DNA from: Ichthyophthirius multifiliis
Lineage: Eukaryota; Ciliophora; Oligohymenophorea; Hymenostomatida
Assembly: GCF_000220395.1 (NCBI RefSeq)
Contig: NW_004086358.1
Span: 1 to 28,362 of the forward strand
Length of the DNA stretch: 28,362 nucleotides
Reading direction: 5' to 3'
The notes below the pieces were generated by a model. The model had not been told where the DNA came from. It did not search any database and worked only from the letters and a program-made list of their open reading frames with translations. Shown in pieces: positions 3,772-25,819 of this stretch; the stretch's first letter is position 1; each line of letters starts with the position of its first letter. A program made the translations under genes and the position numbers.

Positions 3772-5433
3772 ATGTCTTAAAATAATAATTAAATAATCTA
3801 CATTGGTATTCGTCGTGAAGATAAAAGCCATTGGGAACGTAGAGTAGCTATTATACCAGATCACGTAAAATAAATTTAATCAATGAACCCCCATATAAGA
3901 TTTATAGTATAACCATGTAACAAGCGCATATTCTCTAACAAAGAATATGAAAAGAGTGGAGCAACAATAAGTGAAGATCTATCTCCATGTGTTTTAATAG
4001 TAGGAGTAAAAGAGGTACCTATTGAGAAATTACTAGATCATAAAACATATATGTTTTTTTCTCATACAATAAAAGCCTAACACTAAAACATGCCTACATT
4101 AGACAAGATTTTAGAAAAGCACATTCGTTTAATTGACTATGAAAAAATTACAGATGAGCATAATAATAGATTAATTGCTTTTGGAAGATTTGCAGGAATC
4201 GCAGGGGCCATAGATTTTTTAAGTGGGTTTGGCTAGTTTTTGATTACAAAATAACTTTCTACTGCTTTTTTAAATATAAGTCTTTCTTACAAATATTTTA
4301 ATCTAAAATAAGCTAACTTATAATTAAAAATGGTTGGAAAACAATTATAAGATTAAGAAATTCCTTATGATTTAAGACCTCTCATTTTTGCAGTCACTGG
4401 GACTGGCAGATGTGCAAAAGGAGCATGGGAAGTATTAGAAAATTTTCCAATAATAAAAGTAAATCCAGATGATTTGGAAGCTTTAGTATAAAATTAGGAC
4501 AATCCTTAACATGCTTGTCATATTTATGTGTGCCAAATAGAAGCTCAGCATATGGCAGAACATATTTATGAAAAAGAAAACTTTAATAAGAAAGATTATT
4601 ATGAAAACCCCCATAATTATGTGTAGAAATTCGCCCAGAAATATCTTCCCTATATATCTTGCATTTTCAATAATATGTACTGGGAAAGAAAATATCCTAG
4701 GCTTATATCGGACTAAGATATTAAAGAATTAGCTGAATAAGGATAGAGTAGATTGCTTGGAGTTTCAGATGTTTCATGCGATTTTGAAGGATCAATTGAA
4801 TTTTTAAAAAAATTTACTACACCTGATATGCCATTTTATGTTTATGAACCAATATCTAAGAAAATTCACGATGATCTATTTTATAGGAAAAATGGTATAT
4901 TATATCTAGCTCTTGACTTTTTGCCTTGCGAACTTCCGTATGATGCCAGTTGCCATTTTTCGAGTTAATTGCTAAATTGGATATAAAATATTGCCTAAAG
5001 TGATATTGATAAACCTTTAGAGTAAAGTGGACTCGAAGATTGCATAAAAAAAGCAGTTATTACTCATTAAGGTGAACTTACTTATAAATATAGATATATT
5101 CATAAATTAAGAAAAGCTAATGAAGAGGTTTTGAAATAAGAAAATCTTATGAAAAGCTAAAAGTTAGGAGAAAGAGTTATTAGTTTCTAATCTCTTAAAA
5201 TAGAAGGACATTTATTCGATACAAATGCAATTAATAAAATATTGGATATTTGTTAATAATATAAAATGAAATTCCATGTAGCTGAAATTAATGCTGGATA
5301 AACGGATGAATAAACTTCAAATTTTATTTTGTAATTATTTGGATCTAATAAAGAAAATATGATATTTGTCCTTGAAGAAATTGAAAATTTGGCTAAGCAG
5401 ATTAACCTTAAAATTGATTAAAGTAATTATTGA
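3772..5433 (+). CDS. Lysine-ketoglutarate reductase with LOR domain, no SDH half
   Basis: This enzyme family condenses L-lysine with 2-oxoglutarate using NADPH to give saccharopine, the first step of lysine breakdown. The 553-residue product is a single uninterrupted exon from the first ATG to TGA, with TAA/TAG as Gln. It opens IGIRREDKSHWERRVAI (about residues 11-27), the characteristic start of the AlaDh/PNT-like N-terminal domain of animal and plant AASS. The Rossmann glycine motif GTGRCAKGAWE is near residue 210. The YWERKYPRLIS and ALDFLPCELPYDAS stretches of the LKR half follow. From about 475, SLKIEGHLFDTNAINKILD and HVAEINAGQ match the LOR/SDH linker domain of plant LKR/SDH. The protein then stops, and the ~450-residue saccharopine dehydrogenase half is absent here and from the next gene. 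It has more G+C than its neighbours, as expected for a conserved protein. The family assignment is secure; the monofunctional state is read directly from the stop. Confidence 0.95.
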
Positions 5434-11107: not shown

Positions 11108-14100
11108 ATGACTTATTATCATTAGAAAGAAATAAACATAATACAAAAAATTTTAGAAGAAAACTAATAAGATCTTTCAATTAAGGAAAAGCTTTTTAAG
11201 CTATTAAGTCAATCTGAATAATTAATATATGAAATAAAATATTAAACATAAGAATTAATATTATTTTTTATATAAAATCAGTAAGAAATAGTTTCATAAT
11301 TAATAAGCTTAATAATAAAAGAATCAGAAAATCCTCAAAATTAGGAATTATCATATAAGTATCCATAAGTGGCCGCAAAAATATTTGAATTAAAATAATA
11401 TTATATATATGATTATTTCATATAAAACAACAGGAAAGGCTTGATATAATTATTTGATTTTTTAAAAGAAAAGTAATTAATTGATATTTTAGCAGGATAT
11501 TGGTAAATAGTCGTATAAAATTTATTAAATTTGCATTTTTTAGATACTATTGATTTCATATTTACTAATACAGAATAAATTTTAGATTTATTATTCGAGA
11601 AAATAGATAACTAATCAATATGTAAAAAAATAATAAATAAATAAATAATAAAATATAAAAAGATGATATAATCCAGCAAACATTTTTAATCGAAATAAAC
11701 AGAGTAAATTACTAAAACTAAGAGGCATTATTAAAATATACAGAGACAAAATAAAAATTTATTGAGAAAATAATAAAAAATTTCTACTATAATAAAAACG
11801 ATTAACAAATATACTATCAATGCTATTTTTTAAGCTAAATTGTGTAAAAATATTATTCAATAATTGATGGTACAGAAATGTTAGTTATCATATGCTCTGA
11901 ATCATCATAATCTGAGTTTTTTAAATAAATAATATCATCAAAAAATGAAAAAGTATAAAGAGGTTGTATATAAATAATATTAAGTATAAGTTAGTATTAT
12001 GCATAAAATGCAGAAAACTTTACAAATGGATATTCGGAAGAAGAAGAATACTATCAGGATATGCTAGAATAATACTAAAGTATGCCTTTTATAAAATAAT
12101 TGGTAAATAATATGAAAAGTTTAAAAACATTATTGGAAAATGATAATAATAGAAATTCTATTGGACAGCCTATACTTGGATTAAATAGACTAAATATCAT
12201 TGAAATAATAAGTTTTGTAATAAGAATATAATTCCCTATTGTACAAAAAGCTATTTTAGAAAGCTAAATATTATAAAGAATAATAAAGATGTTTTTTTAA
12301 TATTAATGGAATAACATAATGCATATAATTGTCTAGAATATTTTAATATATATATTCGAAAATTATGAAAAGAAAAGCTTTTGGAAATTTTGTTAGAGTT
12401 TATTATTTGAAAATGATAACTTTTTGATAAAAGAAATAACAGAAAATTGTGAAAACGTATTTTTTTATATATAAGATAAAGTAATTTCCACTAAAGGATT
12501 TTTAGGTTACATTATTAACATTTGTGATTTTATTAATATTATTTTAAAATCAAAAAATATTCATTTGGAAACTTGGAATATTGTTTTTTAAAAAATAGAC
12601 TAATTTAAAGAAAAGGCTTGCTATAATTTAGCAGGATTTAATGAATTCTTGAATGAAACTTAATAAAATATTGATGAATAAGAAAATAAGCTAGCACTTT
12701 ACAATGAATATATTAGAAGTCAAATTGCATAAAAAATGAAGGCAAATCCAAATTTTTAAAAATAGGTGGCTTTATAGCAATATTATTAGAATCTAAAAAA
12801 GAAAAGTTTTCGAGATTAAGATGATAATTTTTATTTAAATAATAATTTGAATTAATAATAATAATTACATATTAATGATTAATAATATAATCAAACCTAA
12901 GGGAAAGATAATATGGATTCTAAGTAATCTAAAGTATTATTGAATAATTAGAATATTGAAATTGATTAAAGTTGTAGAAAAAAATAAAAAGAAGAAAATC
13001 TATAAGAAAAGAATGCATCAGAATAACAAAAAATAAAGAAAAAATAAATTTAGAAGTATAATTAAAACAATAAGAAGAATAAATAAAAAAGTAAATATAA
13101 AACAAAAATGAAAATGAAAAAATATTAGACAGAATAGAAAATTAATGTGAATTTAATATTTATCAAACAGATTAATAAAATTAAAATTTAGATTATTAGC
13201 CTGAAAATCAAAAAGATGAAAAAAACGATAAATAATAATTATAAAAAAATTAAAATGAAGTAAATCAAATACAAAAAGTTTAAAAAGATGAAGAAGAAGA
13301 GAATATTTAAAAATAAGAAATAACATAATTAAAAGAAGGAATAATATAAGATAGAGAAAAAAATAAAATAGAATAAGAATAAAATGATAAAAAGTAAGAA
13401 TAAGAAGTAATAGTAGAAAAAGGAGTAAATTAAGAAATAGAAACAATATATTAAATATAAGAAAAATAAGACATATAACAAATAAAAGTTGAAAAAAATA
13501 TAAAATTTGAATAAGAATAAGAATAAGAATAAGAATAAGAATAAGAATAAGAATAAGAATAAGAATAAGAATAAGAATAAGAATAAGAATAAGAATAAGA
13601 AGCATCTTCTAGATAAATATAAAAAATAAAAAATTTATAAAGTGATTTAGAAAATATAAACTAAATATAAGAATAGAGAAGGGTAACACAAAGCTAAGAA
13701 GAATTAGATGAATATAAGAAAAATCTAGATTTATAAAAAGGATAAATATCACTTCAAATGTCTAAGGATTAATTAGAATAATAAGACATAAAAAATCGAA
13801 TTTCAGATTAAAAAGACGACCTTTCTGCAAAATAAGAAAAAGAGAATTAAATAAATAGCATAATCATACTATAGGAAGACGAAATAAAAAAATCAGAAAA
13901 TTAATTAAAATAATTATCTTCAATAACTAGCAATCAAGAATTATACTAAAACACATTAGAATGTGAAAAATTAAAAAATATATATTAGAATTTATATTAT
14001 GAAAATAGTTATAAAATAGAAGAAATATTAGATAATATAATTGACTAATATGAAAACTAATCGGTAAATTTTTTTCTTCAATAAGAATAAGATTATGTTT

Positions 14101-22126: not shown

Positions 22127-22599
22127 ATTTATTTTTTATTTTAAGAAAAAAAAATCTAATTTTAATTATATATATATTTTTTATTTTCAAATTCAAATTT
22201 TACTTAAAAATTAAATATTTTGTTTTTAATATTTTTATAATATATGTAATTTTTAAATTTTAAATATAAAAATAAATATATAATTATACTATATACTAAT
22301 ATTATCATTTAAAAGTTCCATATATAAAAGATAATAAAAAACTTAAATGTATTATTTGTAAAATAATAAACATTATTTTAATAATTCATATATTTAAAAT
22401 CTAAAAATTATAACAAAAAATAATTTTTTTTGAGCTTAAATTTTGTAAATATAGAAAAATAATAAGTAAAATATATTTTTAAAATAATAATATATATTAA
22501 GAGAAATCTATTATTTAAATAATATATATATTTTTTAAAAAATGAATAAATAATTTTTTTCAATTTTTTTTTTAATTAATAAATATATTAATTTGCAAG

Positions 22600-22879
22600 A
22601 ATAAAAGCAGATATAGAATATTGTGCTGGTTGAGGTTATAGTTTTATGTTTAAGAATGTTAAAAATAATCTTCTTTAAAAATATAAAGAACAGCACTAAA
22701 TAGAAGTAAATGACTTATAATAAGATAAATATACATTAAATTTCTAAGTATTTCTATAAATTAATAATTAAACAAAAATTGAAATTTGGAATAAATAGAA
22801 AGGCGATGGAAAAGTAACTTCTGAAAATATCAAAATCTTAACTGATAGAATAGATTAGTTATTAAAAGAGTAAAAATGA
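22600..22879 (+). CDS. Selenoprotein W-type (Rdx family) thioredoxin-fold protein
   Basis: The reading frame encodes IKADIEYCAGUGYSFMF, where U is an in-frame TGA at 22631-22633 in the position of selenocysteine of the family CxxU motif. It continues for 82 codons, with Gln as TAA/TAG, through FQVFLQINNQ and the hallmark KGDGKVTSENIK, to a terminal TGA at 22877-22879. The size, about 92 codons here, matches SelW (about 85-100). SelW-type proteins are small cytosolic thioredoxin-fold oxidoreductases. The N-terminus is incomplete because no ATG lies in frame nearby. One candidate is a first exon at 22347-22357 (ATG TAT TAT TT) joined over a 242-nt GT-AG intron (22358-22599), giving MYYL before IKAD, with Sec at residue 15. 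A SECIS hairpin lies 50 bases past the stop. The family is secure; the start is inferred. Confidence 0.9.
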
Positions 22880-22929
22880 TCATTATTTTATAAAAGTATA
22901 TAATAATTTTAAGTAATAATTTTAAAAAA

Positions 22930-23005
22930 TTATAATTTTAAAATGAGAATTCAGTAGTAAAATACTTATTAAAGAGCTACTGATTTTGATAATCTTAAAT
23001 TGTAA
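22930..23005 (+). promoter_or_regulatory. SECIS element in selenoprotein W 3' UTR
   Basis: Read by eye as a eukaryotic SECIS. The basal helix 22930-22940 pairs with 22995-23005 (one mismatch). The non-Watson-Crick quartet is ATGA at 22943-22946 opposite TGAT at 22987-22990. The upper helix includes CAGTAG (22952-22957) paired with CTACTG (22977-22982). The apical loop (22958-22976) opens with the conserved run of A (taaaat), and CTT/AAG inside it could form the mini-helix of a type II element. It begins about 300 nt after the Sec TGA, within the range usual for such elements. This element would direct Sec insertion at 22631 instead of termination. Confidence 0.82.
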
Positions 23006-23753: not shown

Positions 23754-25819
23754 ATGTCAAGCAAATCCAAAATTACTGTTTTAGATCCTGAAATAAATTA
23801 AGATTCTGATAGAGAAGATGGAATAATTGAGAAATTTTGGAATTTAAAAGATCCTTATTTTCTTGCAAAAATAGTTTTAAATTAAAAAAAATCAAGAAAT
23901 TATTTCTAAATAGGAGAATTATACAAAGAAATTTTAAATAAAAAAATAAAAAAAATAAAGTTCGATTATAATAAAAAAGAATAAATAGCAAATTCATTAA
24001 AATAAATTGCACTAAAAACCACAATAGAGCAAGTTTAATTTTATTTTTTTTAATTGTTTATTTATTTATACATATATTATTATAGATTTTCGCAGAAAAA
24101 GACACCGGATTAATTACATTTAAAACTATGAGAAAATTAATTAGAAAAAAGCTTGAATTTAATTAATTAGGAAACGAAGATTAATTTAGACAAGTAAATT
24201 CATAATTTTAATAATTCTTATATGATTTTTTAATAATTATATATTTATTATTAAAACAAAAGATTTTAGTTTAATGTTCAAATAGTGTAGTCGAGATGAG
24301 CTAAAACTTAAATTATTATTAAATTATTTTAGCATAAGATTATTATGATTATTATTTACATTAAATTGAATAAGTTAATTATAATTTATATAATATTTAT
24401 AAATTTTTAATACAGATATATAAAGTTTATTAATCTATATGAGTATTTTAATAAAAATCTTATTAATTAGATTTTTTAAATAAAATTCATTATTATTATT
24501 AATTATTAAATTTATATTAAATAAATTTATTGCATTTTATATAATTAAATATAATAGATATATTTATAATAATTATTTTTTATGTATATATATTAATGTA
24601 AAAGGATATAAGTAGAAGTAGGATGCTTGTTAAATCAGATGAATAATTGTAGCAATTAAAACGTATATTGTTAGCATATTCACGAAGAAATGTTACAATA
24701 GGTTATTGCTAAGGATTTAATTTTATAGTTTCGAAATTCTTATAATATTAAATAACAGAAGAAGAATCATTTTGGCTTTTAGTATAAACCTTAGAATTTA
24801 TACTCCCTTTAGATTATTATCCAAATATGATGATGGGAGTTGTTTGTGATTAGAAAATTGTTGAATTATTTTTAAAGAAATACAATAAGAGTATTTATGA
24901 TAAATTACTGTCATTTGAAACAAATATTCTTAATATATTATTAACTTAATGGATAGTTTGTTTATTTTCTTAAGCATTAAATGATGTATTGCTTCCAATA
25001 GCTTAGGTAACATTTATTTAGCAAAGGATCAGTTGCAATATTTAAAATTTAGTTTAGTATTGTTAAAATATTGTTAAAAATGAGATAAAATAGGCAAAAG
25101 GAAGTAAATAATTTATTCATATTATTAAAATGTTAAAAATTATTATATAGTTGAAATCGTAAGAACAATAGAAGAGAAGATAAAAAATTGGAAAGATCCA
25201 GAGAAATTTAATAAAATGATAAATAAAAATATATATTCATAATCGAGGAGTTAACTTTTTAAGGGAATTATATAAAGAAATTTGTATCATTTAATTGAAA
25301 CATAGAATTTCTAAAAAATAGAAAGATGAAAAATATTAAAAAGCAAATGAAATAAATTTCAAAAAAATTAAATGTAATGCTAATCAACCTATTTGCTAGC
25401 ATATAGTTGCTATAGAAAATTCCAAAAATATAACTCCTCCTGAATATTTTATTCTAAAAACATAAAGATAATTTAAAATTATTAATTTTTATTTTAGTAA
25501 AAGTATGGTTAATGACGATAGAAATGTAGAACTTTTTCCTGAATAAATTTTATAAACTTTGTAAAATCATATTTGCATAAAATACGATGATATCGTTAAT
25601 TTATAAGATTTCGCACATTAGTCTATATTATAATAAAATGGAATTGTTAATATTGATAATAATCCTAACTTTAATAATGATAATAATTAATCTGAAGCTA
25701 TTAATTTTTATTAAAATGTATCTAATAATAACACTAAATTTAAATTTTTAATTAATAAAATAATTTAACAAAATTAATAAATCGAACCTAATATAATACA
25801 AAATGATAATATTATTTGA
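23754..25819 (+). CDS. TBC-domain Rab GTPase-activating protein, frame-disturbed 3' half
   Basis: TBC proteins stimulate GTP hydrolysis by Rab GTPases in membrane traffic. Introns 24033-24085 (53 nt), 24194-24262 (69 nt) and 24374-24604 (231 nt) join four exons. The domain shows LNYYQIIL, HQIEQDISRS (the IxxDxxR arginine-finger motif), LLAYSRRNVTIGYCQGFNF (the YxQ glutamine finger, with Gln as TAA at 24710) and ESFWLLVQTLEFILPLDYYP. After NDVLLPIAQ (about 25006) the homology moves to the next frame (FSKGSVAIFKIQFSIVKILL), then again near 25132-25150 (IEEKIKNWKDPEKFNK), then back near 25215-25240 (NRGVNFLRELYKE, KCNANQPIC), ending at TGA 25817-25819. Each step is +1. Candidate introns of 16 nt (24986-25001) and 19 nt (25132-25150) exist for two of the steps but are implausibly short. 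Sequencing indels or gene decay are alternatives. Confidence 0.85.

Follow-up and report, generated by a model that had tools for sequence, protein, structure and literature searches.

For the ciliate Tetrahymena thermophila, in which UGA is the sole stop codon, the literature describes a tRNA-Sec together with six putative selenoproteins whose genes have SECIS elements; the available text of that report gives the six as two GPx, three TrxR and SPS2, with no SelW among them (PMC2612030). In Condylostoma, according to the accessible part of another paper, UGA stands for Trp, stop and selenocysteine (Sec) alike (PMC4967479). Given these two precedents, the principle that UGA may serve both as Sec codon and as stop is not new. 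For Ichthyophthirius multifiliis, a parasite of fish whose published genome measures 47.9-49 Mb at 15.9% GC, Coyne et al. 2011 reported a tRNA-Sec, and the main text of their paper, as far as it is available, contains 'seleno' three times and names no selenoprotein gene (PMC3341644). Here we describe a small SelW-like gene of I. multifiliis that appears to read TGA, its sole stop codon, once as Sec and once as stop.

Results

A coding frame continues through an in-frame TGA

The window, by which we mean the whole 28,362-nucleotide stretch analysed (contig NW_004086358.1, C491 in our numbering of an assembly that totals 44,957,332 bases over 937 contigs), is AT-rich, with a GC content of 10.6-23.4% per 2 kb. 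Two published hsp90 primers for I. multifiliis (PMC10024447) have exact matches in the assembly, oriented towards one another and spanning 225 bp; the product length given for cDNA is 138 bp, and the other 87 bp would need to be intronic. Pfam searches placed an alanine dehydrogenase/PNT plus LOR/SDH-region protein at 3787-5430, a SAPS domain at 12100-13000 and a RabGAP-TBC domain at 24596-24985. With TAA and TAG read as Gln, a forward-strand frame at 22601-22879 that is interrupted by one internal TGA encodes an Rdx-family, SelW-like protein (Table 1). When the internal TGA is taken as Sec, the translation runs IKADIEYCAGUGYSFMFKNVKNN...NKQKGDGKVTSENIKILTDRIDQLLKEQK and includes the KGDG motif, and its core opens with the codons TAT TGT GCT GGT TGA. 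These readings agree with those of the first-pass annotation of this DNA, which had proposed a C-x-x-U motif, a frame running on through KGDG and a second TGA as terminator, so that two TGAs 246 bases apart would carry opposite meanings in one gene. Its further statement that the gene is absent from ordinary ORF lists was only partly true, as a 77-aa ORF beginning at the ATG at 22646 is listed under code 6. The 243 bases 3' of the internal TGA have a codon log-odds of +23.5 relative to a null with a mean of -27.3 and a maximum of 3.4 (5,294 overlapping windows; the training set was four stretches of the window taken as coding), indicating that they are coding.

Table 1. Positions of the SelW-like gene and its SECIS-like hairpin within the window
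Feature	Position	Strand	Basis
Putative first coding exon, ATG TAT TAT TT (MYY + part codon)	22347..22357	+	simplest of 16 combinations
Putative intron, GTAAAA ... TGCAAG, 242 nt	22358..22599	+	splice-combination scan; low GC
Main coding exon, SelW-like selenoprotein, stop included	22600..22879	+	family match, codon statistics, relatives' profile
CxxU redox motif, C-A-G-U	22622..22633	+	aligned with CGS(TGA) of L001 and L002
In-frame TGA, inferred selenocysteine codon	22631..22633	+	frame reading, alignment, relatives' profile
Terminating TGA	22877..22879	+	frame reading, ORF list
SECIS-like hairpin	22943..22990	+	pattern scan, folding, Markov control
Hairpin 5' core, ATGAG	22943-22947	+	
Hairpin helix arms	22948-22958 and 22976-22986	+	
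Hairpin apical loop, 17 nt, AAAA first	22959-22975	+	
Hairpin 3' core, TGAT	22987-22990	+	

The 5' end of the gene is less simple than first proposed. No in-frame ATG lies between 21230, the nearest one listed, and 22601, and a 5' exon is therefore needed; the first-pass annotation, which began the gene near 22600 and gave it no such exon, is to be corrected on this point. Sixteen combinations of ATG, GT and AG leave the frame open into YCAG, and we chose the ATG at 22347 as the simplest, from which the protein would start MYYLIKADIEYCAGU; the other start and splice combinations also stand as candidates. GC content is 8.7% in 22301-22600 versus 20.3% in 22601-22876. The start of a related gene described below (L001; MDNQIKVMVEYCGSU) supports a start just 5' of IKADIEY. 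Unlike that of the window gene, the L001 start codon lies, by our reading, inside the same exon as the motif.

The protein belongs to the Rdx family

The Pfam Rdx model (PF10262) matched the window protein with 34.2 bits (E 3e-8; curated cut-off 22.6) and, when the Sec residue was masked, with 27.3 bits (E 4.4e-6). The NCBIfam SelT/SelW/SelH model (TIGR02174) gave 31.3 bits, under its curated cut-off of 34.2, which L001 (62.6 bits) and a second relative, L002 (47.0 bits), both passed. The SelW assignment of the first-pass annotation thus stands as Rdx/SelW-like by the Pfam score and falls short by that of NCBIfam. A genome-wide search with Pfam Rdx returned six matches, and the window locus was not among them.

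Since Pfam Rdx gave no match at E up to 1 to the part after the internal TGA alone, we built a profile from relatives (L001, L002 and the database proteins P0002 and P0003) and left the window protein out of it. Against 948 overlapping six-frame pieces, this profile ranked the window piece first with 46.0 bits (E 2e-13), a score to be read with the fact that P0002 and P0003, found by profiles containing the window protein, are not fully independent of it. Two more pieces passed the inclusion line, both overlapping the SelW-like gene, and the best unrelated piece scored 6.5 bits. The score was 42.5 bits with Sec masked, and the post-TGA part alone matched with 29.8 bits (E 2.4e-8).

Among the six genome matches to Rdx, L001 (C60) and L002 (C757) carry CGS(TGA), and L003 (C679) is the C-terminal exon of a SelT-like gene whose upstream exon reads CIG(TGA)SY. 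In each of these three sister genes, as in the window gene, a TGA sits in the CxxU motif and a SECIS-like hairpin follows the stop. The remaining three (L004, L005 and L006) have no TGA in the match, contain a conserved CxNCxxHxWCTxHDxxKY stretch and gave no SECIS-like match at or above 18.9. A genome search with the window protein itself found its own locus and, weakly, L001 (22.5 bits, E 0.005). Its identity to L001 and L002 is only 27-28%; it has C-A-G-U where they have C-G-S-U, YTLNFQV where SelW/Rdx relatives have the TGCFEV stretch, and two to three additional residues mid-sequence. P0002 has Cys at the Sec position, and P0003 has W there (CGSWGY), which is probably a Sec codon rendered as Trp by a gene caller.

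Proteins of the SelW/Rdx family are built in the order strand-helix-strand-strand-strand-helix, and the same order is predicted for the window protein. Like Selenoprotein W/Rdx (PF10262; PDB 2npb), it has a CxxU/C motif near the N-terminus of about 95 aa of sequence and a KGDG-type motif ahead of the last helix. Instead of a SelW orthologue, it could be a true selenoprotein from a different Rdx subfamily, one resembling SelH or Rdx12. Low identity points that way, as do a PDB search with the window protein alone, which returned no SelW chain, and the 37.6-bit match of profile A2 to C17orf37. Profile A2 includes the window protein and consists largely of relatives; its best PDB match is nevertheless Selenoprotein W (44 bits), and the small size and N-terminal CxxU also argue for SelW. 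We regard membership of another subfamily as doubtful, while giving it appreciable weight.

A SECIS-like hairpin lies 3' of the terminating TGA

The first-pass annotation had also proposed a 3' hairpin with an ATGA/TGAT quartet, paired helices and an A-rich loop, and this structure is present: its arms (AATTCAGTAGT and GCTACTGATTT) pair at 10 of 11 steps. The hairpin has a UGA/GA non-Watson-Crick core, a helix of about 11 steps, an apical run of A and a 3' UTR location; its core begins 63 nt after the terminating TGA and 312 nt downstream of the first UGA.

We searched for such structures with a scanner that requires UGA in the 5' core, NGA in the 3' core, 9-13 helical steps and AA at the loop. 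It was devised after the window hairpin was known, and its 3' core was relaxed from TGA to NGA after L001 and L002 had been inspected by eye. This scanner puts the window hairpin ahead of every other match on either strand of the window (24.2; next 22.5, 21.5 and 20.2). The stricter first version also ranked it first (23.8 versus 17.2) and found the hairpin of L003 (25.6) and missed those of L001 and L002. A scan of both strands of 26 sequences (107,333 bases; of 31 loci, 6 were dropped for overlap), a non-random set chosen through Sec- and Rdx-related searches, gave 14 matches at or above 18.9. The best four, L003 (27.9), L001 (24.9), the window (24.2) and L002 (24.2), each follow the stop codon of a gene that belongs to the Rdx family and carries a TGA in frame, and the fifth scored 22.5. 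All six published T. thermophila SECIS elements scored between 18.9 and 25.9. Among 3,000 Markov-generated sequences of 200 nt, 3 reached 24.2 and 22 reached 18.9. The folding energy of the window hairpin is only moderately unusual (z -2.0; 7 of 200 shuffles equally good), and Rfam reported no SECIS family there or at L001, L002 or L003.

Other candidate selenoprotein genes were noted in the genome. A glutathione peroxidase (L033, C438) has an in-frame TGA at the catalytic position (VACKUGLT) and a SECIS-like match of 22.5 downstream; in the available part of PMC7409322, a ciliate GPx study that takes in I. multifiliis, ciliate Sec-GPx are said to be without a detectable SECIS. A thioredoxin-reductase-like gene (L036, C906) ends TSC-TGA-GCN-TGA, possibly Sec-Ala-stop, and lacks a strong SECIS match nearby (scores of 8.2 at 62 nt and of 17.2 at 1332 nt). 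Another (L034, C720) has a SECIS-like score of 23.9 at 450 nt past the match.

The genome encodes Sec machinery

A tRNA-Sec on C401 scored 62.9 bits, the sole one of 30 matches above the cut-off of 47, and its anticodon loop, UUUCAAG, has UCA at the centre; ARAGORN did not report it. Genome searches also recovered SepSecS (359.6 bits) and the fourth domain of eEFSec (68.5 bits). SelD/SPS2 was found on C838 (L015) as three pieces, exon by exon, of 86.1, 49.9 and 33.1 bits, each below the cut-off of 125, with an in-frame TGA at G-U-G-C (context K-G-U-G-C-K-V-P). This gene may already be included in a survey of SPS proteins in which, according to its accessible text, ciliate predictions were adjusted by hand (PMC4561486). 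In the roughly 740 nt after its stop the scanner found no SECIS-like hairpin (best 5.2, versus 18.9 for Tetrahymena SPS2). A genome search for PSTK with TIGR03575 gave no matches; PF08433, considered for the same role, matched a single locus, in three pieces, and this locus resembles KTI12. No SBP2 was recognised by eye among the seven genome matches to PF01248, which we take, from their motifs, to be SNU13-, NHP2-, RPL30-, RPL7a- and RPS12-like. Missing an SBP2 would be unsurprising because Tetrahymena SBP2 is, by the available text of PMC7409322, about 22-25% identical to other SBP2s. Of the machinery that the first-pass annotation proposed to look for, therefore, tRNA-Sec(UCA), eEFSec and SPS2 were found and SBP2 was not recognised.

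It is conceivable that Sec-UGA is decoded here without a recognisable SBP2 or PSTK, and in at least SPS2 without a canonical SECIS, and that another L7Ae protein (e.g. RPL30) or mRNA context separates Sec-UGA from stop. The Sec-insertion system of this ciliate would then depart from the textbook; we consider this improbable, and ordinary eukaryotic Sec insertion the most likely course.

Discussion

Computation establishes the family of the protein, shows that the frame is coding both before and after the internal TGA, places a hairpin with SECIS core features where one is expected, and finds tRNA-Sec and several pathway genes in the genome. Family similarity, the quartet and Sec machinery, on which the first-pass annotation had staked its reading, are all present. 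We consider it very probable that the locus is a functional eukaryotic Rdx-family selenoprotein gene, encoding a SelW-like thiol/selenol oxidoreductase. If, as we infer, the gene is expressed and its 5' exon spliced, Sec-tRNA(UCA), brought by eEFSec to a ribosome on mRNA with the 3' UTR SECIS, would read the UGA at 22631 as selenocysteine, and the UGA at 22877, near the SECIS on its 5' side, would terminate the protein. The C-A-G-U motif could then form a reversible selenenylsulfide, consistent with the presumed redox role.

The first TGA could alternatively be a plain stop, making the locus a decayed or truncated Rdx gene and the downstream frame a relic, as might be argued from the I. multifiliis code, in which TGA is the ordinary stop, from the lack of any transcript seen for this locus, and from the divergence from L001 and L002. 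Coding statistics and family similarity nevertheless continue past the internal TGA, which occupies the Sec/Cys position of the family as in L001 and L002, and the SECIS-like hairpin lies 3' of the gene, and we judge such decay very unlikely. Least probable of all, to the point of being barely credible, is that a Cys codon (TGT or TGC) was misassembled as TGA or that a tRNA reads TGA as Cys or Trp, for although Rdx relatives such as P0002 have Cys at this place, TGA recurs there in L001, L002 and the SelT-like L003, each with its own SECIS-like hairpin, and a Cys or Trp reading would leave those hairpins unexplained.

Under the preferred reading, a functional selenoprotein gene, the locus provides a protein-coding user for the tRNA-Sec described by Coyne et al. 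2011, and it exemplifies a type of gene that is cut short when standard annotation applies the ciliate code. Because UGA is the sole stop codon, each selenoprotein mRNA of I. multifiliis is a natural test of how the ribosome distinguishes Sec-UGA from stop-UGA inside a single message. There is also some practical interest in the dependence of a fish parasite on selenium. Searches of the open-licence PMC literature for SelW in I. multifiliis or in ciliates listed no publication announcing this gene.

The double meaning of one codon, to which the first-pass annotation drew attention, holds and is not special in itself, T. thermophila likewise having putative selenoproteins and UGA as its only stop. 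The SelW-like gene resembles the selenoprotein genes of that species in its use of UGA as both Sec and sole stop codon, in the presence of a tRNA-Sec, and in its ATGA-type 3' UTR SECIS with similar scanner scores. Unlike the described T. thermophila set, it is SelW-like, a kind with no counterpart among those six. Thus, Sec in ciliates with TGA as the only stop was known from Tetrahymena, and it is the SelW-like gene itself that is new.
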